A stretch of DNA of 64,000 bases, from the NCBI GenBank assembly GCA_014871385.1, contig CM026427.1, positions 12,896,430 to 12,960,429 on the forward strand, written 5' to 3'. Source of the DNA: Ceratodon purpureus. Taxonomy: Eukaryota; Streptophyta; Bryopsida; Pseudoditrichales; Ditrichaceae. The translations under genes were made by a program, and so were the position numbers. A model generated the notes under the pieces. That model was not told where the DNA came from. It did no database searches and was given only the letters and a program-made list of their open reading frames with translations. Below are positions 42,216 to 64,000 of the stretch, piece after piece (position 1 is the first letter of the stretch; each line of letters opens with the position of its first letter).

Positions 42216-42339
42216 ATTAAAAAAAAAAAGAACCTTTTAGCCCGAAGATAGAGGTGACTCCGAAAATTGGGTTGGACAACCTGGGCGGGCGGTCTTCCCA
42301 ATCCCGTAGAGTGAGTGGGTGTCGACTCTAGAGAGTGCT

Positions 42340-42490: not shown

Positions 42491-42539
42491 AGACTGATGG
42501 AATTTTTGGGTGGTTTAGTTGAGAGCATGGACCATTTGT

Positions 42540-45235: not shown

Positions 45236-45241
45236 GACGTC

Positions 45242-45694: not shown

Positions 45695-45984
45695 AACCGC
45701 TGTCCGCCACTACGAAAAAGAGCTTTACAAAACACCAACACAAAAGAGCTTTACAAAACACCAACACAAAAGAGGAAGAGACATTCCATAATCTTAACTT
45801 AAATATCCCTGAAGAAGATGCTTGGCGCCCTTGAAAATCGGCATTTCATTCATTTAAAAGTTATCATCCTCCTAAACTTAATGAAAAAGGACGATGGTTG
45901 TGCAGAAGTCATTTACCATTTAAAAATTAAAAAATTAAAAAACATCTTAAAAAATGAAATTATAAAAGAAAAAAGAAAAAAAGA

Positions 45985-46680
45985 AACATTTATAAAAAAT
46001 GAAATTAAAAAAGAAAAAAAAAAGAATAGAAAAAAAAATATTAAGGTTGAAAATAATATGAAGGAGATTATAAAATTGAAAGAGAAAATTAAATGAAAGA
46101 TAAAAATAAATAAAAGGACTCTTTCGACTCCATTAATGAGATAGATAGAATAGAGGAAGTTAATACAAAATACAAGATAATTACAAATAAAATTAATAAA
46201 AAGATTAAAGGCACGTAGACTAGAATGGATGAGTTCTAGTAATGTTAAGAAAATGTTACAATATTTAAGGTTACTTGATCCCTCTTAAGAGGTTCAATAC
46301 CAATACATTTAAAGCAGTAATTTGGATATAAATGTGAGGGGATAAGGGGAATTAACGTATGCCAAAACTAGTTAGAGGGAGCTGGAGCATAGTAATCGGT
46401 GCGCGTCAAAAAATTAATCACCAAGAAAAGAGAAAACGAACTACAAATTCAATGAAAATACTGTAATTAGTCCACGGTTATAGGGTCAATTAAATTACTA
46501 AAAAAAGTATATTTCTAAAAATATACGGAGAATATTCGAATCTTCTAATTTTATATTTTATTTTTAGTAAAAAAAGTTCTATTTTTAGGTTCAGACTCAC
46601 ATTTTGTGCTCTCCGCTCTCCAAATCTCCGCTCTCTGCTCTCCGCTCTACGCTCTCTGCTCACATACAAGTCTCCCTCCA
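45985..46680 (-). mobile_element. Left terminal inverted repeat of the putative giant element
   Basis: Read on the minus strand, this matches 63280-64000 on the plus strand, including a 60-bp block without differences by eye around ATTGACCCTATAACCGTGGA. The inner edge carries a GAGCGGA array (46606-46662 on the minus strand). The outer limit is not resolved; part of the same sequence recurs at 44,940-45,060. Confidence 0.85.
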
Positions 46681-46994
46681 CAACGAATTATGACTACAGT
46701 GTGCATGTGAGAGGTGATTGAAACATACATATGCAACATAACATACACACATACGCACGTACAACAATCAACGACAGAAAGAGCAGTTCTCAGGAGGATA
46801 TAAATTACTGTAGAGGACCTTGATTTCAAAACGGTGTACAGTCTCAATGGTCATGCATAAATCTAGTGGTGGGGTTAATACGGTCAGAAGCTTCTACCTT
46901 ACTCAATATATTCTGACAAAGCTGGGCCGCTGGTATATCGCTCTTTGAAACAAAGTTCGCCGTGTTCTAGGAGTCTGAGAAGGGATTGGGAATG

Positions 46995-47490
46995 CCCAAG
47001 CACTTATGTGACCCACTCCTAAACCCTGGAAAACGTTTGCTAAGTCCCGAACACACTTACGTGACCCACTCCTAAACCCTGGAAAACGTTTGCTCGGTCC
47101 CGAACACACTTACGTGACCCCCTCCTAAACCATGAAAAAGGTTTGCACGGTCCCGAGCACACTTACGTGACCCCCTCCTAAACCTTGAAAAATGTTTGCT
47201 CGGTCCCGAGCACACTTACGTGACCCCCTCCTAAACCCTGAAAAATGTTTGCTCGGTCCCGAGCACACTTACGTGACCCCTTCCTAAACCCTGAAAAATG
47301 TTTGCTCGGTCCCGAACACACTTACGTGACCCCCTCCTAAACCTTGAAAAATGTTTGCTCGGTCCCGAGCACACTTACGTGACCCCTTCCTTAACCCTGA
47401 AAAATGTTTGCTCGGTCCCGAACACACTTACATGACCCCCTCCTAAACACTGAAAAAGGTTTGCTCGGTCCCGAGCACACTTACGTGACT
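46995..47490 (+). repeat. 53-bp tandem repeat (about nine copies)
   Basis: Unit: TCCCGAGCACACTTACGTGA, then CCCCCTCCTAAACCCTGAAAAA and a TGTTTGCTCGG end. Adjacent units create GCTCGG-TC-CCGAGC, a 6-bp inverted repeat at each junction. Each unit has one ACGTGAC core, identical to the ABRE/G-box core. There are no spacers, so it is not a CRISPR-like structure. It lies just inside the left terminal repeat, downstream of the SWIM gene's stop. Confidence 0.9.
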
Positions 47491-47702
47491 CCATTCTATT
47501 GGGGATTACACAGTTCCTTACATTGCTTAGTAGTAAATACTTCTTTACAGAGCCTATGTATATTCAGAGCGAGACTCACACGAATTTGAGGAAATGGAAT
47601 CCAGTGCTACTGTAAATTTTTGGTAGTGGCCCTTTTAGTCTCACTACTTCACCATTAAAATAAATACAGGCTACACATGTGCGAACACCAACTCAGATAT
47701 CA

Positions 47703-49025
47703 CTAGGTCTCCAAGAATTTCAGAAGGCCACTCTCCAGGACTCGCTTCACTTCGTTGAAGCTAAAACTAACTGCATGAATGAAAGTATCCGACTCTGATT
47801 CAAGACCGCAGACTACACTGAATAGGTAATACAAATGCTTACAATTAGCCCATTGACCCCGCTTCCCAAGTGCCGTAATTGCCATCTCCTTGAAATTCGG
47901 GCAAGTGCAGGCAGGGTGTTGCGATATGGTCAGGTAATATTGCTGTACCTTTGGAGGCTTCCCTGAATCCAATGTGACGATGCATCCGAGGGCTGGGGCA
48001 GGCAGCATGCACAACTTGCTCACTTTCGCTTGCAACGATAAGGCGGAGGCACAATTATTGCTGTGCTTGGTCGACGGAGCCTTCTTGTTCCGTCGGATGA
48101 GCTTTCCTGATTGCCGGGTAGGGAACTCGTCCGGGTATGCCGGCATAGGGTAGGCCGAGAAGTCCACTGCCGCTGCCCGGTCTTGAAAGAGTCTTCTCGG
48201 TGACATCTCCTTCTGCTGCGAGAGTCTGAACCCGGCATTTTCTAGAGAAAGTATCTCTTTCTTCGTCAACTTTGTCCCAAGTTTCACGGGCCACACCTCA
48301 GGTACCTTTGGCACCGATAGGACCCACTTCCGTTTGCTACCCTTGACGCACCTGTCAATGTCGTCATTGCAGAAAAAGAACTGATGAGTCTCTATTCTGT
48401 CTTTCCTGTAGTTCTTCATGGGGCCCGTGTATGTCGGCGCCGCAGTGCTCTTCCCGTGCTGCACGATCCGTGCCACGCATTTCTTCTTAGTCACAGCATG
48501 TTGGGCGAAGCACGCCTTGGCGGATGTCTTAGGAAGTCGTGCAATGTGCCACTCAGAAGGGTTGCAGGCGGTCTCCTCAACTGAAGTGACGTGATGGTAG
48601 TCCACTCGAGGTGGAGACTGGTCAGGTTGAAGGTCGGCTTGGTCCTCTTCGCTGCTTATAGGAGAGTCCGTTATTACCACCGTCGGAGGATAGTCGCTCT
48701 CCCGGCGTGCAGCTCTAGTTTGGACACGAGGTCTTGACACGCTGATCTTGTCTGGCCTATGAGACTCCCGTTCATCTCCAAAGGCAACATCAGGTTTTCG
48801 TTTTAGAGAGACACAGACCTCTTCCCCTTCAAGATGCGGGTCCCTGGTGCACCATTCGTCCGCTCCTGGCATGTTCATAATCGCTTCGTGAAGGACTTTT
48901 GGGTTCCCTGTCCTTGCTGCAGATCTTTGTGCACGTCGGAGCTTCAGCTCCTCTTTGGACGGACCTTTCCCGGGACCATGGTTGTCATAATGGACGGACG
49001 GGCCAAAAAATTGTCGTGTAGTCAC
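47703..49025 (-). CDS. SWIM zinc-finger protein, intronless
   Basis: 440 open codons. The first ATG is at 48878 (391 aa); upstream codons back to a GTG at 49025 read as plausible protein (GPSKEELKLRRAQRSAARTG), so an upstream exon or a non-AUG start is possible. The C-terminal third has a SWIM finger: ACTCPNF, then WANCKHLYYLF (CxC-x19-CxH). SWIM fingers occur in MULE transposases and in chromatin or ubiquitin proteins; no MULE DDE domain is present here. The middle is rich in Pro, Ser and charged residues. It is divergent from the coiled-coil ORF across a GC-rich array and is likely a DNA- or protein-binding factor of the element. Function unknown. Confidence 0.75.
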   Translation of the reverse strand: MTTRQFFGPSVHYDNHGPGKGPSKEELKLRRAQRSAARTGNPKVLHEAIMNMPGADEWCTRDPHLEGEEVCVSLKRKPDVAFGDERESHRPDKISVSRPRVQTRAARRESDYPPTVVITDSPISSEEDQADLQPDQSPPRVDYHHVTSVEETACNPSEWHIARLPKTSAKACFAQHAVTKKKCVARIVQHGKSTAAPTYTGPMKNYRKDRIETHQFFFCNDDIDRCVKGSKRKWVLSVPKVPEVWPVKLGTKLTKKEILSLENAGFRLSQQKEMSPRRLFQDRAAAVDFSAYPMPAYPDEFPTRQSGKLIRRNKKAPSTKHSNNCASALSLQAKVSKLCMLPAPALGCIVTLDSGKPPKVQQYYLTISQHPACTCPNFKEMAITALGKRGQWANCKHLYYLFSVVCGLESESDTFIHAVSFSFNEVKRVLESGLLKFLET

Positions 49026-49440
49026 GTGACGAACGTGACGGACGGTTATCGGACGGACGCTTATCGGACGGGCTCCCGACCGCGAGCAAAATTACTGTCC
49101 TCACAGTTTACTACTGTTTACCATGGGTGGCGCCCGTCGTCGTGTCCGCGCGCGTCTTTGCGCCTGTTCGCGCCGGTCATTTGTGGCTGTTCGCGCCCGT
49201 CGTCAGTCTCGCGCGCGCGCGGTGATCGCGCCCGATTACCCTCGCCCGACCAGGGTCGCCCGCGCCCGTCGCGCGCTTGCTGTGATCGCGCCCGTCGTCA
49301 GTCTCGCGCGCGCGCGGTGATTGCGCCCGATTACCCTCGCCCAATCAGGGTCGCCCGCGCCCGTAACATGCTCGCGCCCGTAGCAGCCTGCGCGCGCCCA
49401 ACCTGCTCGCGCCCACACTGTCGGCCCCGTGAGTATAAAT
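49026..49440. promoter_or_regulatory. GC-rich CGCGCCCG array 1, probably bidirectional, with TATA box at 49434
   Basis: About 300 bp of CGCGCCCGT-like units, including an internal direct duplication of roughly 105 bp. It ends in TATAAAT at 49434-49440, upstream of the plus-strand ORF at 49562. On the other side are a GTCACGTGAC palindrome (49021-49030) and repeated TTATCGGACGG next to the divergent SWIM gene. The contrast with AT-rich surroundings is abrupt. Confidence 0.75.
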
Positions 49441-49561
49441 TGCCACCCTCCTCCACTGATTTCGCACCCCCCCACTTTGTGCATTTTGCCTTCAACAGCC
49501 CAAGGGTAGCTGATTGCTTAGTGCTACGGTGGGTTTCTCAACATTCGGTGTACCGTCCAAC

Positions 49562-49966
49562 ATGAATTCCAACGCCTGCAATTGCCAACAAATCAAGTCC
49601 ATTATGAGTTTAACGAATGGTGCTACTCCACCGGGCACTGCACAGCGAACGGACACAGTTATTTGGTCAAAGCTGGAGCGACTCCGTCAACTGATTGAGT
49701 TCTTCGAGGATTGGATCTCTCGCCGTGACAAATTGGTGGCCTACGCAGAGAATGGACGCCCTCTGCCTCCAACCACTGAAGAGCAGTTGGCAACCCAAGC
49801 GACTGTCGAAGAACTTGACTGTGAGATTGGCGATCTCATCAAAGAACTGAAGAAGGAGATGGCAATACTTTGTATCCCCAATATTGTCTCTAGTGCTCAA
49901 ACGAACCATTTCGAGACGCACTTGAAAGACCTAGAGGACCGGTACCTAGAGTGCATGGCACTGTAA
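49562..49966 (+). CDS. Small coiled-coil protein, intronless
   Basis: 134-aa ATG-started frame. Residues about 30-75 and 80-130 are strongly helical with heptad-like spacing (SKLERLRQLIEFFEDW and EELDCEIGDLIKELKKEM). The Cys-containing start is NACNCQQ. No family recognised. It has its own GC array, TATA box and leader upstream, and AATAAATAAA about 30 bp after the stop as a probable poly(A) signal. An oligomerisation or adaptor role is possible but inferred only from the coiled coil. Confidence 0.65.
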   Translation: MNSNACNCQQIKSIMSLTNGATPPGTAQRTDTVIWSKLERLRQLIEFFEDWISRRDKLVAYAENGRPLPPTTEEQLATQATVEELDCEIGDLIKELKKEMAILCIPNIVSSAQTNHFETHLKDLEDRYLECMAL

Positions 49967-50079
49967 TCGACATTACAATGAAGTGATACATTTCCAAAAT
50001 AAATAAAGTATTCTTTTTTAACTCTGAATTTGCAAGTCCTCTTTGGTTACTCTGATTTTTAACAGTGTTCTAGGTTGTG

Positions 50080-50458
50080 GTGGCGCCCGTCCTGGCCCAC
50101 TGCTCGCGCCCGTCCATTCAGCGTTGGCGCCCGACGGTCGCGCCCGTACAGTTCGGATCGCGCCCGAAAATATCCGCGCGCCCGCGTCGACGTCCGCGCG
50201 CGCGCCCCTTCGGTACCCGGACGACGCCCGCTCGCGCCCGACGAAGACCGGGTCGGTACCCGCTCGCGCGCGGTAAAACCCGCGCGCGCCCGTCATATAC
50301 CCGCCACTGAACCGCTCGCGCCCGTTGATATCCGCGCGGGCGCGGACGGATACACGGCCGAAACCCCGCCGTCGGTGCCCGCGCGCGCCCGTCGGGTTTC
50401 CGCTCGCGCCCGTAGCAGGCTGTTCGCGCCCGTTCCCTGGCGCCCGTGACTATAAAAG
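50080..50458 (+). promoter_or_regulatory. GC-rich CGCGCCCG array 2 with TATA box at 50451
   Basis: About 370 bp of CGCGCCCG/TCGCGCCCGT units ending in TATAAAAGG at 50451. The following leader (50460-50530) shares blocks with the leader after array 1: CACCCCCCC-like C run, then TTGCCTTCAACAGCCC and GGGTAGCTGATTGC. Confidence 0.8.
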
Positions 50459-50733
50459 GGCGATTTCCCACCTCATTTTGCACTCCCCCCCCCTTTGAGC
50501 ACCTTGCCTTCAACAGCCCCCGGGTAGCTGATTGCGTGGTACTCAGGTGGGTCCCAGCACTCTGACACGTGTCCTTGTTTTTGTTCTCCAGAACTCTATG
50601 GTGTCTGTGTATTACATTTGAGAATTTTGTAAATGTTTATAATTTGTAAATGTGATTGAGGTTCTGGGGTAGTCGTAGGCTTTTAATTTTGCACCTTCGG
50701 AAGACTTCGAAGAACGATCTACCTCGAGCAGAC

Positions 50734-51669
50734 ATGGAACGGCAACAACCAGCACTCACGGCGGCAGAGCAGAGGAAAAAGCAAAAGGATGCGGGACGGC
50801 CCAGGCATGGAAACCTCCAACATAAGAGGGTCCACGTCTTATTGAATCCAGCAAAGCTGGCATTCAGAGGGTGGGAAGCTGCATCGCAACCGTGGACTCT
50901 AGCAACGTGTGAACAATTCATTGAATGGTGCCACATTGGGAAGTTATTCCCGTTGCACCGTCATAAATGCAATCGTCAATCAAACAAGGCAAACATGAAA
51001 TATTGCAAGAACCGTCAGTTCGGGAGGCGGTGTTTGGAGGTGTGGCAGGTCCTATACAACCAGGCGATGAACGAGAGGAATGAGGTTCCGCTCTTTATTT
51101 GTAGAATGGTATATGCCGAGGTAGTGCTTCATAGGCAGGTGGATTGGAGGACCATACGGTTGACTCCTAGCGTCCACCGGCGTCCACATGAGATGGCGAT
51201 ACCTACAGGGGTCCTAAGATTCCCAGGTGTGGACTGGGCATACTTGGATGATCCTGAGGATCAAGCGCCTGTTCAATGGAGTGACTCAGGGGAGGATAGT
51301 GATTCTGATGGTACGGTAGACCGTCCCCCTCAGTCACAGACAAGAGCAGCGACTAGTGCTAGAATCACACGGTTAAAAAAGAAGGATCCTGAGCTAGCTG
51401 CCTGTTTGTCGACGAGGAATCGTGCACCGCCTGCAAATCCTACTGGACCGGGTATTCCTCATCAGGCTCCTCTAGCAATCGTCGGGGGCCCGAGCAATGT
51501 TGATGTTGCTCCTCCAATATTAGTTCCACAGATTGCGGGCCCGAGCAATGTTGATGTAGCTCCTCATGTACTGAATCCACAGATTGCGGGCCCGAGCAAT
51601 GTAATGGAAGATGATGACACTGGGTTTGCAGATGAGTTGGAGGCTACAATAGCCGCCGCTGATGCCTAG
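50734..51669 (+). CDS. Hypothetical protein, N-terminal half of an amber-split gene
   Basis: ATG at 50734 (MERQQPALTAAEQRKKQKDAG), 311 codons to a TAG at 51667-51669. Basic N-terminus with RKKQK and RPRHGN, then a conserved-looking globular segment rich in Trp/His/Cys (EFIEWCHIGKLFPLHRHKC), an acidic/Pro linker, and a repeat GPSNVDVAP/QIAGPSNV three times near the end. The next frame (51670-53286) continues in the same phase after the single TAG. No family recognised. With the downstream part it would be a protein of about 850 aa. Confidence 0.65.
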   Translation: MERQQPALTAAEQRKKQKDAGRPRHGNLQHKRVHVLLNPAKLAFRGWEAASQPWTLATCEQFIEWCHIGKLFPLHRHKCNRQSNKANMKYCKNRQFGRRCLEVWQVLYNQAMNERNEVPLFICRMVYAEVVLHRQVDWRTIRLTPSVHRRPHEMAIPTGVLRFPGVDWAYLDDPEDQAPVQWSDSGEDSDSDGTVDRPPQSQTRAATSARITRLKKKDPELAACLSTRNRAPPANPTGPGIPHQAPLAIVGGPSNVDVAPPILVPQIAGPSNVDVAPHVLNPQIAGPSNVMEDDDTGFADELEATIAAADA

Positions 51670-53286
51670 GGCCTGCAAGTCGATGCATTGCAGAAGGAGC
51701 TGGAAGGAAAAAATGCAATAATTTCTGAGATGGAGAAGACTATCCAGAACTTGTACGAGGAAGCTGATAGGATGAATGAGATTATACGGAAGCAGAATGA
51801 AGAGATTTCGCAACTTAGATCTGCGAAGACTCCGACTTACGTACCCGAAGCAAGCCAAGCTCCAATCCCTGGTAGCCCTGGAATGAACGAGGAAGACGTT
51901 AATGCCATCATTGAATCGGCCACGCACGGTCTCCTGGAAGATACCCCGGTCCGAGTTCCCCGTAAGCCAATCATTCCATTCGCGTCATCAAGTCAAGTGA
52001 TGCACCCCCCCCAGCGGCAAATCATGTTCGTAGATTCTCAAGAGACGGAGGACTCTTTGGGATTTCAACAGCCATCAGTACCCACTGTCTCCGAATTGCA
52101 AGCTACCAACGCGATGCTCAGAAAGTATCTGATCGAGATGAGCAGACAGTACTACCAATGGAAGATTGCATGCATCATGAACGTCGACCGTTTCAGACAG
52201 ATGCGCGCTGAGTTCGAGAGGATTGACCGCGACTACCTCCAGCTTAACTCCAAGAGAGATTTCGGACTTACCTCGTGGGCAGATCCAAATGAAATGTTCC
52301 CTGACAGCCTACCGATGATTGGTAAAGCAATAGATTGGACGCAGTTGGGGTGGGAGTACAAGACCGCCATATCCAATGAGAAGATCGCTAAAAATGCAAA
52401 GCCAAGCTTGCTCTGGCCCAATCCAGCGAAGTATGTGTTGGATGGAACCCACTGTGCAATTTGTACCAATCTATTTGGGCCAGAGGGGGGCTGGCAATTG
52501 GGATCCTGTCAATGCATGTATCATCCACAATGCTTGATTTCCCATGCCTTGATACGTCGGAAGTGTGCAGTATGTAAGGCCCCCTTACACAAGCGTTTTT
52601 ATGAGCAATTCGGCCTAGTGAATTGGATGCTACCGCATTGGGAGCTAAATAAGGAAAATACTCCTGACTTTCCGGACAAGTGGGGTGAAGACTTGATTTG
52701 GAATTGGCTTATGGGAATGCACCTGTCCTATATTAAACAAATGAGCGATCAGTGGAGGTGGGACCAGAAACCTGCGGAGATTGTACGGATCTGCCACGAA
52801 CTCATCAAGGGCGGGACGGAGGAGGAACTCGAGGGAAGGAGGAATTTCTTCTACCAAGTGCTACATGGGTATTGGGATATTCAAACTTGTACATTCCAGT
52901 ACGGCCCCCATCCTCTTGGATTTAAGTGGAATTCCAAAGGGGAGTTGGTTGCGGATCAGATCAAGGAGTTGCACGACATGACTGCAGAGGATTTCCGGAT
53001 CGCTGAGGAAGTACAAACCGCGGAATCTGAATGGGATATATTGTTCAAGAATCAAGCCGTGGATTTCCTATGTGCTGAAGTGGCTCCGGAGGTCGTAACA
53101 GTGCTCCGTCGGATGCGCAACAACAACTTCATGGAAGCAATGCTTGGAGGAGATGGCATCGCGAAGAGAACCCGTTCTGCCAAGCGGAAACTCATCGCCA
53201 ACGATGGGGCAGAAAGTAGTGCAGCAGGTACCTCTTGTGCTCGACACGATGAGGGTGGATCGAGTTCCTCTGCACCGGGCACGTGA
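51670..53286 (+). CDS. Coiled-coil/RING-type protein, C-terminal half of an amber-split gene
   Basis: Open from the codon after TAG 51669 to the stop at 53284-53286 (538 codons). The first ATG is in KTIQNLYEEADRM or nearby, so independent translation would need an internal start. A coiled coil (about the first 50 residues: LQKELEGKNAIISEMEKTIQ) precedes a linker and second helical region. A RING-type cluster follows: HCAICTNLFG, then GSCQCMYHPQCLISHAL, then RKCAVCKAPL, giving C-x2-C / C-x-C-x2-H-x2-C / C-x2-C. The C-terminus is low complexity Ser/Gly with a basic KRTRSAKRKL. The layout matches the gene at 30342-31766. A ubiquitin-ligase role is suggested by the RING but not proven; one zinc ligand is Cys where His is usual. 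Confidence 0.65.
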   Translation, partial: GLQVDALQKELEGKNAIISEMEKTIQNLYEEADRMNEIIRKQNEEISQLRSAKTPTYVPEASQAPIPGSPGMNEEDVNAIIESATHGLLEDTPVRVPRKPIIPFASSSQVMHPPQRQIMFVDSQETEDSLGFQQPSVPTVSELQATNAMLRKYLIEMSRQYYQWKIACIMNVDRFRQMRAEFERIDRDYLQLNSKRDFGLTSWADPNEMFPDSLPMIGKAIDWTQLGWEYKTAISNEKIAKNAKPSLLWPNPAKYVLDGTHCAICTNLFGPEGGWQLGSCQCMYHPQCLISHALIRRKCAVCKAPLHKRFYEQFGLVNWMLPHWELNKENTPDFPDKWGEDLIWNWLMGMHLSYIKQMSDQWRWDQKPAEIVRICHELIKGGTEEELEGRRNFFYQVLHGYWDIQTCTFQYGPHPLGFKWNSKGELVADQIKELHDMTAEDFRIAEEVQTAESEWDILFKNQAVDFLCAEVAPEVVTVLRRMRNNNFMEAMLGGDGIAKRTRSAKRKLIANDGAESSAAGTSCARHDEGGSSSSAPGT

Positions 53287-53879
53287 CGTCGTGGAGATCC
53301 ATGAGTGAAGACCACGTTTTGTAAAAAGATATCGGAATATAAATACATGTAGATGGCATAGGGGTATGGATAGGTTTGGGATTACATTCACATGTTTAAT
53401 GTTTGTTAAACTCAAACAATGGATGATAATTTGCTTTTGTAAATCATTGTCGTGATTCTCAAGACGCTTTTATGCTCCCTTCATAATACATTGGCCTCTC
53501 TTTTTTGGATTGCCAATCATGTTATTCATTCCGCCCGTTGTCTCATCTCCTTCCATCGTATGATAAGTGTATAAATATCTCTGTTGCACACCAAAATGTT
53601 TAATATGGACAGTGGATTTAAGTCACGCTAAGGGTCCCTTCACACCTGGAGGTGTGTACCACCGGCTACCGACTGTCTAACTCCGGGCCCTCCAAAAAAC
53701 CCGTTTCCGATTCACAGGGTTCGAGTTAATTTACAGGGGGTTGGGTCTCGTGATAGGCCAGAGTCGGGGATCGGGGGCTGGGGTTCTTGCTGGATTTAAG
53801 TCACGCTAAGAGAACTTAAGTTATTGTAAGTGTATTTAACTTATGGACTGAATTTTATGTTACGTGGATTTGAACTCTG

Positions 53880-54510
53880 ATCCCGCCCGCATGGTCGCGC
53901 GCGTTTGCGCGCGCCCGTAGTGTGCGTACTCGCGCGCGCGCGAACCTGCCCCAGCGAGAATAAAACCAGGATTACGCCCGCCCGTGCGCGCGCGCACGAA
54001 CTGCTCGCGCGCGTGCGAAGTGCTCGCGCCCGTCGCGCCCACAGCGCGCGAACGGATACTGAAATGTGGAACACCCGACGGTGTCTCCGTCGTTTGGCTC
54101 GCGCCCGATTCCGCATGCGCCCGCCCGATTTCGCGCGCGCCCGACAGTGCACGCGCGCGCGCACTGCAACCTGGGTGGGGGACTAATTTTTCTCCCCAAA
54201 CTCTCTTTTCCATTTGCCCGCGCCCGTACGCGCGCGCGCGTCCTGATCGCGCCCGTCGAACCAACCGCGCGCGCGCGGTCGCGTGATTCTGAATCTCTTC
54301 CTCCCCCACAATGTCCCCCGCATTTCGTTCGCGCCCAATTTCGCGCGCGCCCGATTGCGCGCGCCCGTCAATACTCGCGCGCGCGCACTGCAACCATGTC
54401 ATGGAAGTAATTTCTCCCCATTCAGTCCCTCGTTCCATTTGCACGCGCCCGGACGCGCTCGCGCCCATCAATGCGGGCGCCCGTTTTGCACGCGCCCAAG
54501 CACTCCAACA
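53880..54510. repeat. GC-rich CGCGCCCG array 3, no ORF directly downstream
   Basis: Roughly 600 bp of CGCGCCCG units arranged in two larger imperfect repeats, each with a GCGCGCGCACTGCAACC block. A 19-bp direct repeat GGATTTAAGTCACGCTAAG occurs twice at 53,610-53,815 just before it. No TATA/ORF pair follows; the AT-rich satellite comes next. Confidence 0.85.
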
Positions 54511-54539
54511 ACATCACTCAAATAAATTTTATGATTCCA

Positions 54540-55640
54540 CCACTCTCCCATCGTATCCCCTTGTTTTTATTAAATAATCCCACACTCTCTAAATTTTTAA
54601 TTGTTTTTTTTCCCCCTCTTTGAACACTACGTTTTTATTTAACTCGTAATCTCATTTTCTCTGTTCATTTTTATAATATACTAAAGGTAGTAAATCTTCA
54701 TGTCGACCCAGAGTCACATGAAGATCCTCTAAGCGCCTGAGTTCAGCTGATTTATATCCACTATTTTTTTTTTTTCCCACTGTTTTTTTTTTCCCCTTCG
54801 TTGAACACTACGCTTTTATTTAATTCCTTCTTTCATTTCGTTTGTTCAATTTTATAATTCCACCTCTCCCCCATCTTCCCGCCTTATTTTTATTCAATAC
54901 TTCTACGCTCTGTAATTTGTTTTATATTTTTTTTTCCCCTTCGTTGAACACTACGCTTTCATTTAATACCTTCTCTCATTTTGTTTGTTCATTTTTATAA
55001 TTCCACCTCTAGTCTATCCTCCCGCCTTATATTTATTCAATACTCCTACGCTCTTTAATTCCTTTTTTTTTTTCCCCTTCGTTGAACACTACGCTTTTAT
55101 TTAATTCCTTCTTTCATTTCGTTTGTTCAATTTTATAATTCCACCTCTCCCCCATCTTCCCGCCTTATTTTATTCAATACTTCTACGCTCTGTAATTTGT
55201 TTTATATTTTTATTTCCCCTTCGTTGAACACTATGCTTTTATTTAATTCCTTCTTTCATTTCGTTTGTTCAATTTTATAATTCCACCTCTCCCCCATCTT
55301 CCCGCCTTATTTTTATTCAATACTTCTACGCTCTGTAATTTGTTTTATATTTTTATTTCCCCTTCGTTGAACACTACGCTTTCATTTAATACCTTCTCTC
55401 ATTTTGTTTGTTCATTTTTATAATTCCACCTCTAGTCTATCCTCCCGCCTTATATTTATTCAATACTCCGACGCTCTTTAATTCCTTTTTTTTTTTTTTT
55501 CCCTCTTCGTTGAACACTATGCTTCTATTTAATTCCTTCTCTCATTTCGTTTGTTCATTTTTATAATTCCACATCTCCCCCATCCTCCCGCCTTATTTTT
55601 ATTCAATACTCCTATGCTATTTAATTTGTTTTTTTATTTT
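54540..55640 (+). repeat. ~140-bp AT-rich tandem repeat (seven to eight copies)
   Basis: A unit with CCCCTTCGTTGAACACTACG, TTATAATTCCACCTCT, CCCGCCTTAT and ACGCTCT..AATT repeats about every 140 bp (GAACAC at about 54620, 54803, 54943, 55083, 55226, 55367 and 55510). Poly-T tracts vary in length between copies. No coding capacity. Confidence 0.9.
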
Positions 55641-55811
55641 TTTCTTCATTTTATAAATTTGAATGCCTATTCGTTTACTTTTTTTTTTTTTTTTTTTCTT
55701 TTGGGTACTCCAATCTCCCATACTAATGTATGGTATTTCAGTGTAGTCCAGTCTCTCCCTTAAGCTTTATTTTTTTTCTTTTTTTGAACTTACGACTTTT
55801 AAACTTCATTG

Positions 55812-56060
55812 AGCGCGCCCTGTTGGATCGCGCGCGTCCGAACGCGCCCGCAGGCGCCCGCGCGGTGGTGTCCGCAGTCGACCCACTGAACCTGCCCACG
55901 CGCGCGCGCGCACACTCGCGACCGCGCCCGCAAGTACGCGCGCGCGCCTGCTTGTTCGACGCGCGCACGCGTCGTCCCCGACCTGCGCTCGCCCTGCTCG
56001 CGCCCACCTGTTCGCGCGCGCCTGCTCGCGCCCCACGCCGCCTGCGCGCGCGCTCGGGGT
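55812..56060. repeat. GC-rich CGCGCCCG array 4
   Basis: About 250 bp of CGCGCCCG-like units between AT-rich satellite and an ordinary spacer. No TATA box or open frame with a recognisable product follows immediately. Confidence 0.8.
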
Positions 56061-56394
56061 TTCAACTGGATTAGTGCAGTAACTAGTAAAATTTATCCCA
56101 TATTTTAAGTTAACACTCCCTGAGGTTAGCTTAAAACGACTTACCTTCCAGTGGGTGGGCAGAAACATGAAAGGGCGAGATGACAGCCTGCTCCAGTTCT
56201 TAGACATGTGTGAATGGGGTGGGTAGTCCTCCCGCACTCTCATGTTTCTCAATCTTTTCACTTAAATAGGATTCCTTTTTATGTAGATGTGCACGTGTAT
56301 GTAGTTTACACACTTTGATTTATTTAAATTTTATTCATTTTTCCCTCTCGTTGTTTCTCCTTCTCGTTGAATTGAGGTGGCCAAATCGATCCCG

Positions 56395-56735
56395 GCCGTT
56401 TGATCGCGCCCGCACCCGACCGCCCGTGCGCGCCCGCGCCTGCATTCGCCCGCCGCTCTCCGCCCGTGCGCGCCCGCGCCCGCATTCGCCCGCCGCTCTC
56501 CGCCCGCGCCCGCCCGCGCCCGCCCGCTTCGCGATCCAGCGCTCGCGCGTGCATGCGCCCGCCCCCGCCCGTCTTCCACCGCGCGCGCTATCCGCCACGC
56601 GGCCTTCAATCGCGCGCACCCACCTGCGCCCGCCCGTTCGCCTCGGAGCGCGCCCGATCTTCTGGTGCGCGCGCGCCCGTTCGGTCGCGCCCGTCTGGAC
56701 AGTACTCGCCCGGTCGAGGGCGGCAGTATATAAAC
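56395..56735 (+). promoter_or_regulatory. GC-rich CGCGCCCG array 5 with TATA box at 56727, upstream of the hAT gene
   Basis: About 330 bp of GCGCCCG units with several near-identical CCGCCGCTCTCCGCCCG stretches, ending in TATATAAA at 56727-56734. The hAT ATG lies 244 bp further on. Confidence 0.8.
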
Positions 56736-56977
56736 TGCCCCCTTGATTTGACATCCACCTTACCTCCTTGCGTGCTTCATGTCCTGGGTCTCCTTGAGGG
56801 CTCCTTGCTTGAAACTGTTAGCTTGGGGAGACACTTGGTTTGGGTGGGGGGAATGTAAAAATTCTTCTCTCCATAAATCAATGTGTCAAGCACTTTTCAG
56901 ACACACTAAGTTATTCAGATAATAATCTTTTGGTACTACTGGTCCTATTAGTCCCGATACTTCCCTAATCATTCACT

Positions 56978-59900
56978 ATGGATCCGGATGAAGCGGTTGA
57001 ACCGGTTGAAGTGGTTGCTCCGGCTAGAGCCATTCCAAGACTCGGTACGAGAGAGTGGGCACCATGGTTTTCGATCAAGTTCCAGGAAGGGTCACTGTCA
57101 CATAAGGTAGCCCAATGTGTGTATTGCAGGACCAAGTTTTCGTACGTGAGGCATAGGTGCTTTCAGCATTATGGTTGGGACCAGTCCAATCTCTCGAGGG
57201 TTTGCCAAAAGGCACCTACCGTAGTGAAGAGGAAGTTTCAGTTTTGCGCTAGAAAGATTCCCGGCCCTTTGACACAGGAGGAGGTGGATGGTATCAGGCC
57301 AACGTTCCCCGCGTCAGTTCAACGTGGAACATCCAGTGCTTCCACACACGGCACTCTGTACGGTGGATCCGAACCCTCGTATAATGATTCCGAAGAGGAC
57401 CGAAATGTCTCCAGTGTTGCACCTAGTAGGGCCGGTTCGAATACCACTAGGAGCTTGCGGCAACAGGACATGAGTGAAGTACTCCAGATCGCCAAGCGGA
57501 AGGAGCTGGACATGTTGTGGTCATCCTTCTTTTACGAAGCCAACGTCGCATTCAACGTGGCCAAGCACCCAGCATTTATTAAGGCGGTGAGCACAACCGC
57601 GGCTGCCGGATTTAACTACAGTCCTCCTTCCTATGACGCGATGCGAACAACGCACATCATGGAAAAAAAGAAGTTAATCAAGGCAAAGATTGATGAACGT
57701 ACGAAAACCTCGACCGAGTTATACGGGGGTACCATATGCTCCGATGGCTGGGATAATGTGAATCGCCGACCGTTGATGAATGTCATGCTAGTATGTCCGG
57801 CAGGCGATGTATTTCTTGGGTCTGTTGATACGACTGGCGAGAAGAAGTCAATGGGATATATTGCCGGGGAGATGAAGAAATATATTCGAGAAATTGGCCC
57901 TCAGAATGTTGTCCAGATTTGCACGGACAATGCAGCCAACATGCTTGGCGCCATGGATAATATCCTGGAGGAGTTTCCTCACATGTACAAGCAGGGCTGT
58001 TGTGCCCATATTCTAGATCTTCTTATCGAGGACTGGGGCAAGGAAGTCTTTGTGAAGGATTTGGTCGCCAAGGCTAAACACGTGTGTCATTACATTCGGA
58101 GACATCATGTTCCCATGGCCCTTTTCCGCAAATTTGAACCGAAGTTGTCCTTGGTGGTTCCCGCTGAAACCAGATTCGCTTGTAACTATCTGATGATAGA
58201 GCGCCTTATGGAGGTTAAATTTGCTTTGGAGCAAGTGGTCATGGCACAGGAGTGGTACGAGTATGTCGACGGTTTATTCAACCAAACCGAGGGGGTGCGT
58301 AATCATGCACGCGCAAGCGTAGTGCGTCAAACAATTCGTGACGATGGGTTCTGGCATCAGTGTGACAACTTCACGCACCTAGTGAAACCAGCCCTAGTAG
58401 CTCTCAGGACCTTCGATGGAAGCCAGCCGGCAATGGGCAAGGCATGGATTACAATGAGCAACCTAAAGGATCACGTGTACAATCTCCGAGGATCCCCTTG
58501 CTTTTTCCCACCTGTCATGGCAACAAGGATGGAGCTGCGGTTCGACCGTAGATGGGACATGATGCATACCGATCTTCATTATGCCGCGGCGCTCTTGAAC
58601 CCTTGGGTTAGAACGCATAAGGGCTTACAAGTCATAGGAGAAGCGAAGGCGGCTCTCAATCGGGTGTTTCGTCAGGTGGGTGGCCAAATGGGAATTCCAT
58701 TTGGCGATCTTATGAAAGAGATGATCGAGTTCGACGAGGGACGTGGCCCTTACAGCCCCGAAGTGACCATCGATATCAGAGGTTTGAATCTGGAACCCCA
58801 TCAATGGTGGCAGAGGATTGGAGGGGGACCATTGGCAGTCATTGCGAAGCGCATTTTATCTCAGGTCTGCTCCGCCTCATCGTGTGAACGGAATTGGAGC
58901 ATGTATTCGTTTGTCCACAACAAGGTACGCAACCGCCTGGGGTTAGAGAAGTCTGAGGCCTTGGTGTACATTTATACGAATAGCAGACTCCTCCGCGAAC
59001 GCCCAAAGCCCAACCCCCTCAGATGGTACGAGAACAATGCATGGTCAGAGGAGTCAGATCCGGAGAGAGATCCAAGCGAAGAGGAAGGAGATGACGACGA
59101 TCATTACATACCAGTTGACCATGCAGGCAGTGGGGATGATGATGTCTGGGGACATGATAACGTCGACGTTAACACGAATGGGCAAAACGACGGTAATGGC
59201 AACGGACGCGGTGACGCTAACCGCAACAATCCGCGTGACCGCAACAACCACGATGATAACGGTGATGAGTACGACTTCAACAATGAACCAGAATATAACC
59301 AGGGAAACCCGGACATGAACATCTATGGAGACGAATTACCCACGCTCCCGGTATTTGATGAAGCGGCTAATGCAGAAGGAAGAGGCGCTCGTGACGAAAG
59401 AGATGCTATTCCAGTCCAAATCAATCCTGAGAACAATGACGGGGTTGCAGATGATTCATCCAGCGAGGACCATCTAGGCAACGATATCCATGCTGGCGAT
59501 GATGATGAGGACAGTGACGAAGGGGGTGATGGAAGTCATGGACGGGCTGTAGATGGACCTCATTGGACCGGCCTCGTTAGTGGGGAGGGCAACTGGGGAA
59601 CCGTTCCGGCACAAGGCGACTCAAGCTTGTTTCAAGAGATTCCTCCTGCTCACGAGAGAAGGACTGTGCACGCAATCCCCGCACAGACTGTGGCTCCATC
59701 GCAACCCACTGGTACGGGGGGTATCGAACCAGATACAATCGTGGATGGAAGCCTGGCTCGGAGGCCCACAAGTTCAATGGGCGCAAAAATAGCTCGACTC
59801 CTTAGATCATCAGCAGCGGCGAGGCCTCCACTCAATCGAGCTAGTGGTAGTCGGCGTGGTGCCTCCACCGCCAAGCTAGTCCCCGTGGCGCCAGCTATAG

Positions 59901-60424
59901 ACGAAGCCGTACAGAATGTGGCCCAACGTGGTGCGAAGAAGTCCACAGCCAAGGTTGTTAGGAAACCACCATCACAAGAACCCCGCGGAGGAACACAAAA
60001 GTCAAGCAAAAAAACTGGACCTGATCCCCTTCCATTCTATACAGGGTACACTGAAGGGGGGCCTTCTTCTGGAACTGGGGTTGTTCGCACACGCATAAAC
60101 TTTGAGGATGGCATCACAGCCATCGGTAATTCCGGAAAGGAGAGGCCTATGAAGCGCCTAGTAAGTGCCAGAGATGGCAATACGGGTGAAGTTTCCGTGC
60201 AAGTGCGCAATCTTACATCGGAGGTGGAAGGAGAGGTACAAGCTCCAGTGGTCGGAGCTCCTGAGGATGAAGGTGACAACGAGCACTCAGAGGAGGAAGA
60301 CCCCGATTGCGATGAGGCGCCAGATGACGAAGATGTGATAATCCGGCACGAATTGGGGCCCACTGTAGCTCGGAAAAGACAATCTTCACGCAAGAAGAAG
60401 CCCCGCAAAGCAAGGAGAGTCTAG
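56978..60424 (+). CDS. hAT-superfamily transposase with long acidic C-terminal tail, intronless
   Basis: 1148-aa frame from ATG 56978. A BED-type zinc-finger-like region (WAPWFSIKF...CVYC...HRCFQHYGW) near residues 25-85 leads to a DUF659-like RNase H fold: first Asp in CSDGWDN (about D256), second in CTDNAANM (about D317), CCAHILDLL helix, and the hAT C-terminal dimerisation motif SSCERNWS (E637) followed by FVHNKVRNRLG. The catalytic set is present and the frame is unbroken, so the enzyme may be active or recently active. After about residue 690 comes ~450 aa of Asp/Glu/Asn/Gly-rich and then Lys/Arg-rich low complexity, unusual for hAT transposases, ending KKKPRKARRV. It lies inside the ~16.6-kb TIR-flanked region behind a GC array. 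Confidence 0.9.
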   Translation: MDPDEAVEPVEVVAPARAIPRLGTREWAPWFSIKFQEGSLSHKVAQCVYCRTKFSYVRHRCFQHYGWDQSNLSRVCQKAPTVVKRKFQFCARKIPGPLTQEEVDGIRPTFPASVQRGTSSASTHGTLYGGSEPSYNDSEEDRNVSSVAPSRAGSNTTRSLRQQDMSEVLQIAKRKELDMLWSSFFYEANVAFNVAKHPAFIKAVSTTAAAGFNYSPPSYDAMRTTHIMEKKKLIKAKIDERTKTSTELYGGTICSDGWDNVNRRPLMNVMLVCPAGDVFLGSVDTTGEKKSMGYIAGEMKKYIREIGPQNVVQICTDNAANMLGAMDNILEEFPHMYKQGCCAHILDLLIEDWGKEVFVKDLVAKAKHVCHYIRRHHVPMALFRKFEPKLSLVVPAETRFACNYLMIERLMEVKFALEQVVMAQEWYEYVDGLFNQTEGVRNHARASVVRQTIRDDGFWHQCDNFTHLVKPALVALRTFDGSQPAMGKAWITMSNLKDHVYNLRGSPCFFPPVMATRMELRFDRRWDMMHTDLHYAAALLNPWVRTHKGLQVIGEAKAALNRVFRQVGGQMGIPFGDLMKEMIEFDEGRGPYSPEVTIDIRGLNLEPHQWWQRIGGGPLAVIAKRILSQVCSASSCERNWSMYSFVHNKVRNRLGLEKSEALVYIYTNSRLLRERPKPNPLRWYENNAWSEESDPERDPSEEEGDDDDHYIPVDHAGSGDDDVWGHDNVDVNTNGQNDGNGNGRGDANRNNPRDRNNHDDNGDEYDFNNEPEYNQGNPDMNIYGDELPTLPVFDEAANAEGRGARDERDAIPVQINPENNDGVADDSSSEDHLGNDIHAGDDDEDSDEGGDGSHGRAVDGPHWTGLVSGEGNWGTVPAQGDSSLFQEIPPAHERRTVHAIPAQTVAPSQPTGTGGIEPDTIVDGSLARRPTSSMGAKIARLLRSSAAARPPLNRASGSRRGASTAKLVPVAPAIDEAVQNVAQRGAKKSTAKVVRKPPSQEPRGGTQKSSKKTGPDPLPFYTGYTEGGPSSGTGVVRTRINFEDGITAIGNSGKERPMKRLVSARDGNTGEVSVQVRNLTSEVEGEVQAPVVGAPEDEGDNEHSEEEDPDCDEAPDDEDVIIRHELGPTVARKRQSSRKKKPRKARRV

Positions 60425-60429
60425 ACTGT

Positions 60430-60750
60430 GGTCACCTTTTTAGCGCATGAAGTAGCAGTAAATCTAAACATACAATCTACCGGCTAAAAACCAAAAAAAA
60501 TACTACGTTATTCTTAATGTTTTTTTTTTTTTTTTGGTAGCACCTTATTACGTAGGCTTATACTGTTACTTAGAGTCAACCTAGTTCATTATCTCACACT
60601 CGAAGGAATTGTATGGTTGTGCTCTGTATTAATTTTTGTGCGCTAAATGCGGTTAATATATCTCCATTGAGTAATTTCGCAGTGAATTTTTTTGGTATTC
60701 TGTTCAATATACGAGTATACCGTAACCGAACCTGTACAGTGTATGTAACG
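60430..60750. other. Spacer between the hAT and kinase genes
   Basis: AT-rich 3' flank of the hAT gene with a T run at 60,518-60,536; nothing coding recognised. Confidence 0.5.
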
Positions 60751-60754
60751 CTGC

Positions 60755-61136
60755 CTATCCGGGCGCGTGCACTGGGACGGGCGCGTACAGGAAGGCGGGC
60801 GAGTGCACGGTGTCGGGCGCGTGCGCGGGGACAGGCGCGTGCACGGTCACGGGCGCGTACAGCGTGCTCGCGCGTACAGATAACCGGCGCGCGCAGAGGT
60901 ACGGGCGCGAGCACGCGGGCACGGGCGCCTGCGGCGTCGGGCGCGCCCGATGTGGGCTGACGGGCGCGCACGTGGGCACGGGCGCGCACACGCGGGCACG
61001 GGCGCGGGCAGTCCCCCGCGCGAACGCGGTGGACGGGCGCGTGCAGACGGGCGCATGCGGACGGGCGCGTGTGGAGGCCCTGTGCGCGCGCGTGTACGCG
61101 CTTACGGGCGCGAACAGCCGAGGGGAGCATAAAAGG
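60755..61136 (+). promoter_or_regulatory. GC-rich array 6 (reverse-oriented CGGGCGCG) with CATAAAAGG at 61128
   Basis: Same motif as the other arrays but on the opposite strand: ACGGGCGCGTGCAC-type units about every 14-20 bp for 370 bp, ending in CATAAAAGG. The kinase ATG at 61312 lies 184 bp downstream, with a C/T-rich leader. Confidence 0.8.
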
Positions 61137-61311
61137 CGCCCCTTAACCCTTATTTTCTACTTTTCAAAGTCTCCTCTTCCAGGTGGCTCCTTGTCCTAGC
61201 CCGTGACTCCACGTGCTCTGCTTGGAACTGCAGGAAGTGGGAGCAACCAGATTGGGAGGGGGGGATCTTTTGGTTTTTTTTTTATTGTGTGTCCAGTTCA
61301 TTATTCCAACT

Positions 61312-62880
61312 ATGTCGGTCTCTCGCGGATCCGGGAAACGCCCTGCCTACGTAGATCTTGATGCTCCTGTAGAGGATGTGACGGCAACCTCCACAGCACC
61401 GACCGTTACAGGCTCAAACCCGTCATCAAGCTCATCGGGAAAGAAGAACCGGAAGTCGGCGAGTGAGAGGGACCCGGACTACCCACCTCCTCGGTACCAG
61501 GATTTCGTTAGAGAGCTAGCATTGGAGTGGTACGGATGTCGGAAACGGGAGATGATTACCCGTACATACGTTGAGAAGGGGGAGACCGGAATTAAGGACT
61601 TGAAGACCCATTTGGAAGAGTATTTGTGGAAGAAGCTGGACCTTTCCGAGAGATATAATGATTGTATTCATTACTTTCATTTCCCTAAGTGGATGGAGCA
61701 ACAAATAACAACAAACACTACGAACATTGTGCATGTCTTTGAGTGTGTCAACAAGAAGCCAAAGGAGGGCTACTCGCGGGCGCAGAAGGAGGAGATAGAG
61801 AAGCTCAAATATGTCCAGGATTCGTGCGCGAGATTCTCGAATAATAAGACGAGGGCGAGGCCATGGCTTGAAGCTGGACTGAAAAGCGCAATGGAGAAGT
61901 ACTTGTGGGGAGCAGTGGTTGGAGTTCCGAGAGGGGTCAAGTTGGTTCCGCTGTCAGGCACAAAGGAAGGCGGTTATGGTAAAGTCCGAAAATTACGTAT
62001 TGTTGGCATGCAAACCATACCTGAGACTTGTGTCTTTGCGGGGAAGACGTCCAAGGCTCCTGACGAGACCCAGAAGCGGCACGAGACATCAATAGAAGCC
62101 ATGGTTTGCAGAATTGACCATCCCGGCGTTATTAAGTTTTTTGCGGTCAATGACTGGACGATGGAAGCCTACACGCTTTGGTGGAATGGGGATTGCCTGC
62201 AGAATTTTCTGCACAAGTTCAATTCAAATATCGGTGAGGGTACTCAGAACCGTAACATCCACAAGCAGATCGATATGCCCATGGAAACACGTGACCGTGT
62301 TAAGGCCTTCCGCACCCATAGGGCCAAGCTAGCTTGGGCACTCATCTGTATTATGGACCGGGTCCATAAGGGGTATTTGCAGCATAATGACATCTCCCCG
62401 GGAAATGTCTTGCTTCACTTCCCAGAGGATAAAGTGAGCGAGGTTTACATTGGAGTATGCGACTGGGGCCTTGCAAGTCGGGTGTGTGAGACAACTCCTT
62501 CAAGGTACGGTTACCCAAGTGATGAGGCGCGTACGGAAGCCTTCAAGGAACGTGGTAGTTTTGTGGCTCCGAAGTTGTGGTACACTTATGGTAAGCGAAA
62601 TTCGGAGACCTCTTATGAAACTGTAAGGAGGAGACATCTATATACGCAGGCTGCCGATGCGTACTCGGTTGGAGTGGTAGCAAATAAGATTTGGGATAAC
62701 GACGACGACTTCGACCTTTTCAAGGATACAGCGGGGAAGGCTAGATTTGCGGTGGCGTTGAAGGAGCTCACAAATCCCGATCCCAAGAGCCGCTCCACCT
62801 TGCGTTTGGTCCACGCTACTCTAACAGCCCCTCCCTACAATTTCCAAATCCCAGAGTGTTGTTATCGCAAACATATTTAG
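61312..62880 (+). CDS. Divergent protein kinase-like protein, intronless
   Basis: 522-aa frame. The start (MSVSRGSGKRPAYVDLDAPV) is the first ATG after the leader. Residues about 1-60 are Ser/Thr-rich, 60-200 an unrecognised helical domain, and 210-522 a kinase fold: a Gly-rich loop-like GTKEGGYGKVRKL, a possible ATP-lysine in FAGKTSK, a catalytic loop HNDISPGNVLLHF (HND in place of HRD, Ser in place of the usual Lys of HRDLK, Asn kept), and CDWGLASRV (DWG in place of DFG). The HxDISxGN style resembles fungal FunK1-type and aminoglycoside-kinase-like families. The metal-binding Asp and Asn are kept, so activity is possible. Substrate unknown. The frame is unbroken. Confidence 0.8.
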   Translation: MSVSRGSGKRPAYVDLDAPVEDVTATSTAPTVTGSNPSSSSSGKKNRKSASERDPDYPPPRYQDFVRELALEWYGCRKREMITRTYVEKGETGIKDLKTHLEEYLWKKLDLSERYNDCIHYFHFPKWMEQQITTNTTNIVHVFECVNKKPKEGYSRAQKEEIEKLKYVQDSCARFSNNKTRARPWLEAGLKSAMEKYLWGAVVGVPRGVKLVPLSGTKEGGYGKVRKLRIVGMQTIPETCVFAGKTSKAPDETQKRHETSIEAMVCRIDHPGVIKFFAVNDWTMEAYTLWWNGDCLQNFLHKFNSNIGEGTQNRNIHKQIDMPMETRDRVKAFRTHRAKLAWALICIMDRVHKGYLQHNDISPGNVLLHFPEDKVSEVYIGVCDWGLASRVCETTPSRYGYPSDEARTEAFKERGSFVAPKLWYTYGKRNSETSYETVRRRHLYTQAADAYSVGVVANKIWDNDDDFDLFKDTAGKARFAVALKELTNPDPKSRSTLRLVHATLTAPPYNFQIPECCYRKHI

Positions 62881-63074
62881 AAGTAGGCAAGTAGTGACAA
62901 CAATGTGATATTCTCAGTTCTCCATAAGAGGGGACATTTTTTGTAAGTGGTTTACTGCCACAATTTTGCAAAACTTTTCAATAAACATTGCACTTCCCAA
63001 TTGCCCTCTTCTGAAATACATGCCCTCTCTTGTCATTTATGATTTTGCCCGATGTCGCTCTTTCCCTACTAACC

Positions 63075-63285
63075 TGCAGCGCTCGCGCCCGACCGCCGGC
63101 GCCCGATGCAGCGCACTCGCCCAAATGCACGCGCCCGATCCAGGCTCGCGCCCACATGACCGCGCCCGATAAGTGTGCTCGCGACCGTCAACTGGATCGC
63201 GCCCGCAGCGACGCTCGCGCCCGTTCGCAGGCGCACGCGCGCGGCCGGAACGACGCACGCGCCCTCGCTCTCGCGCACTCGAGGG
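63075..63285. repeat. GC-rich CGCGCCCG array 7 abutting the right terminal repeat
   Basis: About 210 bp of CGCGCCCG units (GCGCCCGATCCAGG, GCTCGCGCCCACATG and similar), ending directly at the start of the right terminal repeat. If used as a promoter it would point out of the element or serve as an internal boundary. Confidence 0.8.
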
Positions 63286-64000
63286 AAGCTTGTACGTGAG
63301 CGGAGAGCGCAGAGCGGAGAGCGGTGAGCGCAGATTTGGAGAGCGGAGAGCACAGAATGGGAGACAGAACCTTAAAATAGCACTTTTTTTACTAAAAATA
63401 AATTATAAAATTAGAAGATCCGAATATTCTTAGTATATTTTTGGGAAGTTACTAATTTTAGTAATTTAATTGACCCTATAACCGTGGACTAATTACAGTA
63501 TTTTCATTGAATTTGTAGTTCATATTCTCCTTTCTTGGTGATTAATTTTTTAACGTGCACCAATTACTATGCTCCAGCTCCTTCTTACTAGTTCAGGCAT
63601 ACAGTAATTCCCCTTATCTCCTTAAATTTATATGCAAATTACTACTTAAAATGTTTTGGTATTGAACCTGTGAACAGGGATCAAGTAACATTGAATTTCA
63701 TAACATTTTCTTAACATTCCTAGAATTCATCCACTGTAGTCTACATGCCTTTCTCCTTTTTTCTTTTTTTTTTTTTAATTTTTTTGAAATTTGTTTTGTA
63801 TTTTTTATAAAATTTTCTTTATTCTATCTATCTTGTTAGAGGGGTCAAAAGCCTCCTTGCATTTGATTCTCTCCTTCATTTTATTTTCACAATCATTTTA
63901 TTTTCACATTCAATTTGTTGATCTCCTTCATATTATTTTCAACCTTCATTTTAAATATTGCTATTCTTTTCTTTAATCTTTTTAATTTCAATTTATATAA
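63280..64000 (+). mobile_element. Right terminal inverted repeat of the putative giant element (runs off the window)
   Basis: Begins GAGGGAAGCTTGTACGTGAG, then a GAGCGGA array (63297-63355), then CCCTATAACCGTGGAC in a block identical by eye to the left repeat, and ends at the window edge while still matching. Full length is at least ~700 bp. Confidence 0.85.

Follow-up and report, generated by a model that had tools for sequence, protein, structure and literature searches.

What kind of unit holds together the open reading frames (ORFs) for a hAT transposase, a protein kinase, a RING protein and a SWIM-type protein at the right of a 64,000-bp stretch of Ceratodon purpureus DNA (the window, C7:12896430-12960429)? 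A preliminary description had read them as the contents of a single giant transposon of about 16.6 kb, bounded by two inverted repeats of about 700 bp acting as long terminal inverted repeats (TIRs). Do these repeats mark the ends of the transposon, and are the additional genes part of it? The window was compared with the 362.5-Mb assembly (151 contigs), and the best overall explanation, held with considerable confidence, is that a hAT transposon of the cut-and-paste type, about 14.5 kb long, carries four genes of its own and that the long repeats are unrelated to its ends. The existence of a multi-gene hAT element is close to certain and it is probable that the extra genes serve it, whereas a specific control role for the kinase and the putative ligase is doubtful. 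The preliminary interpretation is thus partly supported.

Ends, genes and upstream arrays of the hAT element

By its domains, its TIRs and its target-site duplications the element is a hAT transposon, with many copies of whole-unit size and long open frames in four genes. Its left end is at 48977, where a TIR of 19 bp (CATGGTTGTCATAATGGAC, 48977-48995, + strand) is followed by CGGAC repeats and preceded by an 8-bp target-site duplication (CCCGGGAC, 48969-48976). The right end was located beyond the window by comparing the DNA after a nested insertion with a copy of the element on contig C8 (L050) in which the target of that insertion is unoccupied; the two agree over 250 bp at 98.8% and then diverge. 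The element runs on the + strand from 48977 to 63280 (14,304 bp) and resumes beyond the nested insertion for a remaining 239 bp, ending at C7:12998620, which gives a net length of 14,543 bp with the insertion subtracted. Its right-end sequence, when reversed, matches 48977-48995 exactly; the TIRs are therefore perfect (19/19 bp at both ends) and of the short kind typical of the hAT superfamily, not the long TIRs that had been proposed. The duplication CCCGGGAC is identical on both flanks, its right copy following C7:12998620, and the CGGAC motif recurs five times in the left 200 bp and four times, in the opposite reading, in the right 200 bp. Outer ends with an 8-bp duplication, which the preliminary description had proposed to seek to the right of 64,000 and to the left of 44,900, exist, but at 48977 and C7:12998620 and not at the long repeats.

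What, then, of the SWIM gene that had been counted as a member of the same element? The SWIM ORF (from 47703) lies mostly outside the element, and when the element and one duplication are subtracted a continuous SWIM reading frame runs across the joined flanks as an in-frame empty site, a continuity that cuts of 2 and 5 bases, being in the same frame, restore as well. Because the left end of the element is at 48977 and the frame is rejoined on subtraction, the SWIM gene is assigned to a third, older transposon that was hit by the hAT element; part of this interrupted transposon occupies 46689-48976 on the - strand.

None of the four long frames inside the element is interrupted by introns. The first (49562-49966, + strand) encodes a 134-amino-acid protein that was labelled coiled-coil-like by eye and has no Pfam match. 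The second (50734-53286, + strand) encodes a coiled-coil/RING protein of 850 codons, in which a RING motif with eight Cys/His ligands was recognised by pattern match at 52453-52575, and the RING part matches Pfam zf-RING_2 at an E value of only 0.11. The split of this protein by an amber codon is real in the window copy (TAG at 51667-51669) but is not a general feature, as 42 of the 51 full-length copies scored have no stop; a general read-through signal or an intron was rejected for the same reason. The transposase (56978-60424, + strand; 1148 amino acids from its ATG) was correctly described as unbroken, with a stop-free frame of 1151 codons that holds a DUF659 domain (E 2.2e-33, 115.5 bits, cut-off 34.7) and a hAT dimerisation domain (Dimer_Tnp_hAT, E 2.4e-5, 24.5 bits, cut-off 21.4), and D, D and E residues in it align weakly with the catalytic ones of Hermes. 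Finally, a protein-kinase-like protein of 522 amino acids is encoded at 61312-62880 (+ strand, the ATG chosen by eye; searches used 61315-62877 or 61207-62877), in which the sequences HND...N and DWG align, in weak alignments, with the HRD...N and DFG motifs of kinases of known structure. A tandem repeat of 143 bp in six copies (54784-55643) separates the RING and transposase genes and is a likely source of the length variation between copies of the element.

The noncoding DNA of the element is organised around one motif, GCGCCCG, which occurs 69 times in 5,473 noncoding bp, where 3.6 would be expected and where the maximum of 200 resamplings was 12, and only once inside the four coding frames. 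An array of this motif lies ahead of each gene, with one orientation per array and single exceptions in three of the six noncoding stretches. For three of the four genes a TATA box follows the array, on the + strand in each case: the array at 49120-49440 ends in a TATA box (49434) upstream of the 134-amino-acid gene, a second at 50080-50460 in one (50451) upstream of the RING gene, and those at 55806-56740 in one (56727) upstream of the transposase. The array upstream of the kinase (60760-61130) is in reverse orientation, with 14 of its 15 motifs reversed. The first two genes also share the stretch that follows the TATA box (75 bp, 81%). This layout and the shared stretch suggest that one common activator might serve all the genes.

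The hAT family across the genome and a second family with a RING gene

Is the window copy a chance assembly of parts, or one member of a family? The exact 19-bp TIR has 252 matches genome-wide (133 and 119 by strand) and its reversed sequence, used as a control, has none. Among the first 100 of these places listed there are 35 neighbouring +/- pairs, of which none is shorter than 13 kb and 20 measure 14.0-16.4 kb; ten others span 26.5-48.6 kb, one spans 61.7 kb and four exceed 300 kb, a distance at which the two ends probably do not belong to one copy. Short derivatives are absent from this exact-TIR set, which would not include any whose TIRs have changed. Duplications were inspected in a further ten copies, each in + orientation and taken from those with both ends listed; nine have an exact 8-bp duplication, making 10 of 11 with the window copy, as is characteristic of hAT elements. 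The ends themselves are almost invariant: all 40 left ends scored (385 candidates) show 100% identity across 150 bp, and of the 40 right ends scored (415 candidates) 37 show 100% and the other three 99%.

The order of the genes is also kept. Markers were chained using 63 of the 83 kinase matches and at most 20 kb between neighbours, a limit that excludes copies with larger insertions. In these chains 34 of 40 transposase matches have a kinase match 874-915 bp downstream, which bears out the expectation that other copies would have the same gene order. Both ends are present in 21 chains; 20 of these span 13.9-16.7 kb and one spans 25.8 kb. All five markers are present in nine chains, and a marker missing from a chain may mean only that its match fell outside the best-scored ones. 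The coding frames are largely intact, with 139 of 150 scored copies of the 134-amino-acid gene free of stops (323 candidates; 93-100% identity), 36 of 40 scored transposase copies (99-100% identical) and 72 of 83 scored kinase copies. The element is therefore large and multi-gene, and apparently young, and the claim of a large element combining a hAT transposase with coiled-coil/RING and kinase genes holds once its boundaries are corrected.

The chromosomal distribution of the family adds a further aspect. A review gives the sex chromosomes of C. purpureus as exceeding 100 Mb each and making up about 30% of the 360-Mb genome (PMC8000587). Contig C6, at 110.5 Mb and 30.5% of the genome, is presumed to be a sex chromosome, and it carries 14 of the 50 most similar and 41 of the 50 least similar of the 150 scored matches to the 134-amino-acid gene, so that older copies of the element seem to persist there.

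A second family, with a hAT-type terminus, also contains a RING gene. The coiled-coil/RING gene concerned, which lies on C6 (region F) and is interrupted by a Mutator-like copy, encodes a protein with 52% (N-terminal part) and 44% (C-terminal part) amino-acid identity to the RING protein of the window, including the eight-ligand RING motif. It has the same kind of array and TATA layout, with a hAT-type terminus, CAGGGTTGTCTATTCGGAC, downstream, and the sequence CAGGGTTG of this family fits the consensus [T/C]AGNGNNG of a plant hAT survey. The terminus has 135 matches (0 for the reversed-sequence control), and at 65 of the 100 places listed the RING gene starts 2.95-3.13 kb inside it; the 116 RING matches scored (1,195 candidates) are 95-100% identical. 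The left end of this family was not found, only three TIR pairs of less than 60 kb occurring among 100 of the 135 places. Between the RING genes of the two families nonsynonymous divergence (pN) is 0.36 and synonymous divergence (pS) is saturated at 0.80 and 0.86. Because pN is 0.36 while synonymous sites are saturated, the RING protein is considered to be under constraint.

Two observations of a related kind may be placed here. Matches to DUF659 with open frames of 1,095 and 1,032 codons occur in many copies, which suggests that they possibly represent further large hAT families. Within the window, the frame at 30939-31766 is coiled-coil-like and includes a motif resembling a RING finger (Pfam E 0.02, under the cut-off); it is weakly similar to the RING protein of the hAT element (24%, E 0.005).

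The role of the additional genes

Why should a transposon keep a kinase and a RING protein? In the mechanism proposed, the transposase would recognise the 19-bp TIRs together with the CGGAC subterminal repeats and move the whole unit. Every gene would be driven by its own GCGCCCG array, with the TATA box before three of the four, and the arrays would be read by the common activator. Rather than being random cargo, the kinase and the RING protein, a putative E3 ligase, would be permanent components of the element with control over the activity of the transposase or over silencing by the host.

Several points weigh against this explanation. The first bases of the TIR, CATGG, depart at position 3 (CATGGTTG, with a T) from the survey consensus [T/C]AGNGNNG, as given in the accessible part of PMC6027215, a consensus that is not strictly defining, and one of the 11 copies (C9:7942243-7957960) has no target duplication. 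With 27.7 bits (E 2.3e-6) against Pfam Pkinase, the kinase ORF stays under the curated cut-off of 31.7, the RING match is weak, and the putative catalytic residues of transposase and kinase come from weak alignments (whole-sequence E 0.27 for the transposase against Hermes). The region upstream of the kinase has no clear TATA match, only a TAAAAG seen by eye at about 61130, and three further TATA matches lie elsewhere in the element. The transposase of the second family was not located: just one of its 116 RING matches is within 25 kb of a DUF659 match, 145 of the 150 DUF659 matches being paired, with those on contigs C62, C85, C124, C128 and C142 left aside. Only the best-scoring candidates were scored, which biases identity and intactness upward, and all the support comes from the sequence of one assembly.

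Of the rival explanations, the one that survives best, though it is unlikely, is that the extra proteins counter host silencing rather than act on transposition. Copies are abundant and, among the best scored, very homogeneous, identity at the 40th match still being 97% for the RING gene and 99% for the transposase; moreover, TAG makes up 21 of the 27 stops listed for the transposase, kinase and RING matches, a bias of the kind that methylated CHG sites would leave as they decay. The presence of a RING or kinase domain, however, is in itself no pointer to an anti-silencing function.

Could the two genes instead be passive cargo that a hAT element captured from its host? Plants have many proteins with kinase or RING domains, and a 14-kb fungal hAT-like element with cargo, ToxhAT, has been published (PMC6737239, in the part accessible). 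Capture of this sort is nevertheless improbable, given that the frames are free of introns and mostly free of stops in the scored copies, that a second TIR family also has the RING gene, at 44-52% identity and with constraint on its amino acids, and that one array layout is common to all four genes. An endogenous virus equipped with a hAT enzyme is a still poorer candidate. Several compact genes with uniform arrays might recall a virus, and the kinase ORF has a sub-threshold Pfam match to a fragment of coronavirus NSP13 (E 0.054, 14.2 bits, cut-off 28.4) that is taken as chance; yet the TIRs and the 8-bp duplications are those of a hAT element, none of the six ORFs scanned has a capsid or polymerase domain above the cut-off, and a viral origin was rejected after tblastn searches of IMG/VR with part of the transposase, the RING part and the kinase gave no relatives, single-protein scans of this kind reaching close relatives only.

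How does a hAT transposon with four genes compare with known systems? Plant hAT transposons are usually small and encode one enzyme. The DUF659-type plant hAT transposases resemble that of the moss in their DUF659 and hAT dimerisation domains, in short TIRs starting with CA and in 8-bp duplications, but the moss element differs in having four genes and a size of about 14-17 kb. For comparison, a survey of 276 plant hAT sequences, from which the sizes are drawn, has a longest consensus of 7,144 bp and, in its accessible part, no sequence from a moss (Physcomitrella) (PMC6027215). The fungal ToxhAT, at 14.3 kb, is of similar size and likewise combines a hAT-like transposase with other genes between TIRs; it is described, in the accessible part of its source, as composite, with TIRs of 74 bp, no identifiable duplications and annotated instances that are mostly fragments (PMC6737239). 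In the moss element, unlike ToxhAT, the TIRs measure 19 bp, the duplications are exact in 10 of 11 copies, and at least 20 copies run from end to end, at 13.9-16.7 kb. Plant long terminal repeat retrotransposons with additional ORFs likewise retain a further gene next to that for their core enzyme (PMC7264820, as far as accessible), but these are class I elements and no sequence relation is claimed. In the literature searched, where coverage of subscription papers was poor, no multi-gene hAT element in a moss was found.

The long inverted repeats and other features of the window

If the long inverted repeats are not the ends of the hAT element, what are they? Their existence stands, 45990-46678 and 63281-64000 being 81.7% identical over 720 alignment columns (best block 59/60), and arrays of GAGCGGA-type heptamers are indeed present at their inner edges. 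Their proposed role does not, as the two arms are the termini of two Mutator-like insertions. The right arm continues beyond 64000 and includes a further ORF. Of 1,529 candidate copies of this arm 40 were scored, and all are near-identical to it (95-100%), so that at least this number exists. Similarity in 29 of 29 other copies fetched starts within 3 bases of 63281 and goes outward through the 2 kb fetched, with no inward match of more than 100 bp, and 63281 is therefore the end of an element that lies to the right. This nested insertion, whose 5' end is at 63281-64000 (+ strand), spans C7:12959710-12998371, a distance of 38.7 kb with other repeats inside, and the left copy of its 10-bp duplication, TCGCGCACTC, is at 63271-63280. 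The left arm is the 5' end of a second, reversed insertion (36497-46678, - strand) that is flanked by copies of a different 10-bp duplication, CACAACGAAT, at 36487-36496 and 46679-46688; it occurs twice in the window, where 0.15 occurrences would be expected, and 2 of 100 shuffles reached the same number.

Members of this family begin with GAGGGAAGC and finish with CTTTCCCC. The 10-bp duplications are exact (10/10 bp) in all six copies for which both ends were found, the 3' boundary of copy F having been placed one base inside the BLAST end, and in a seventh (E, C2:19910568) the 3' end was not found within the stretch fetched. The family encodes a 150-amino-acid ORF (window 45242-45694), a SWIM-type protein, to whose ORF that of the window transposon at 46689-48976 is 48% identical, and further ORFs. 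Motifs read by eye, D.TY...D...C..H and a SWIM-like pattern, are presumably those of Mutator transposases, and it is these motifs together with the 10-bp duplications that led to the family being called Mutator-like. Mutator-like elements (MULEs) share with it duplications of 8-11 bp and a SWIM-type motif, and some MULEs carry additional ORFs, mudrB being an example (PMC6446971, in the part accessible), whereas this family measures 10.2 to 38.7 kb between its ends, nested material included, and gave no Pfam Mutator match in the seven ORFs scanned. In Pfam scans of its ORFs, the SWIM ORF and the 134-amino-acid ORF nothing exceeded the cut-off, with a single sub-threshold match to DUF6301 (E 0.036).

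The weakest of the rivals, a single giant element that carries SWIM, coiled-coil, RING, hAT and kinase genes between the two repeats, can be set aside, for although the repeats are similar and inverted, their duplications differ and each has its partner at the far end of the insertion to which that arm belongs, the right-arm family runs outward and not inward, the C8 copy of the hAT element is without the right insertion and the hAT element has its own ends with an 8-bp duplication. The repeats are thus dispersed copies with different flanks, and the 16.6-kb unit they were thought to bound does not exist.

Other features of the window accompany these insertions. A frame of 379 codons (35437-36576; 35437-36496 before the junction) extends across position 36497 into the left Mutator-like insertion and has a weak match to plant self-incompatibility S1 (E 0.005, under the cut-off). 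Tandem repeats of 210 bp (40522-42229) lie inside the left insertion and others of about 213 bp, extending for about 7 kb (C7:12970993-12978354), inside the right one. The window also contains GDSL lipase, fasciclin and dirigent domains, which indicate a land plant, and a near-perfect palindrome of 348 bp (97%, 16582-16929), and scans of its 64 kb with Rfam (gathering score) and for transfer RNA genes found nothing.

The layered insertions at this locus illustrate the ease with which long inverted repeats are mistaken for the ends of one element. A broader proposal, advanced tentatively, is that mosses harbour large hAT elements of one lineage for which the RING gene, and here also the kinase, is obligate. 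These genes would make up a self-contained control system with a promoter code of its own, and the elements would move only as whole units of 14-17 kb without short derivatives and would still be active. A hAT family in which the kinase and RING frames stay open in many similar copies would allow a direct test of the need of a transposon for signalling and ubiquitin-type proteins, and also of the way in which a cut-and-paste element of 14 kb spreads through a haploid moss.

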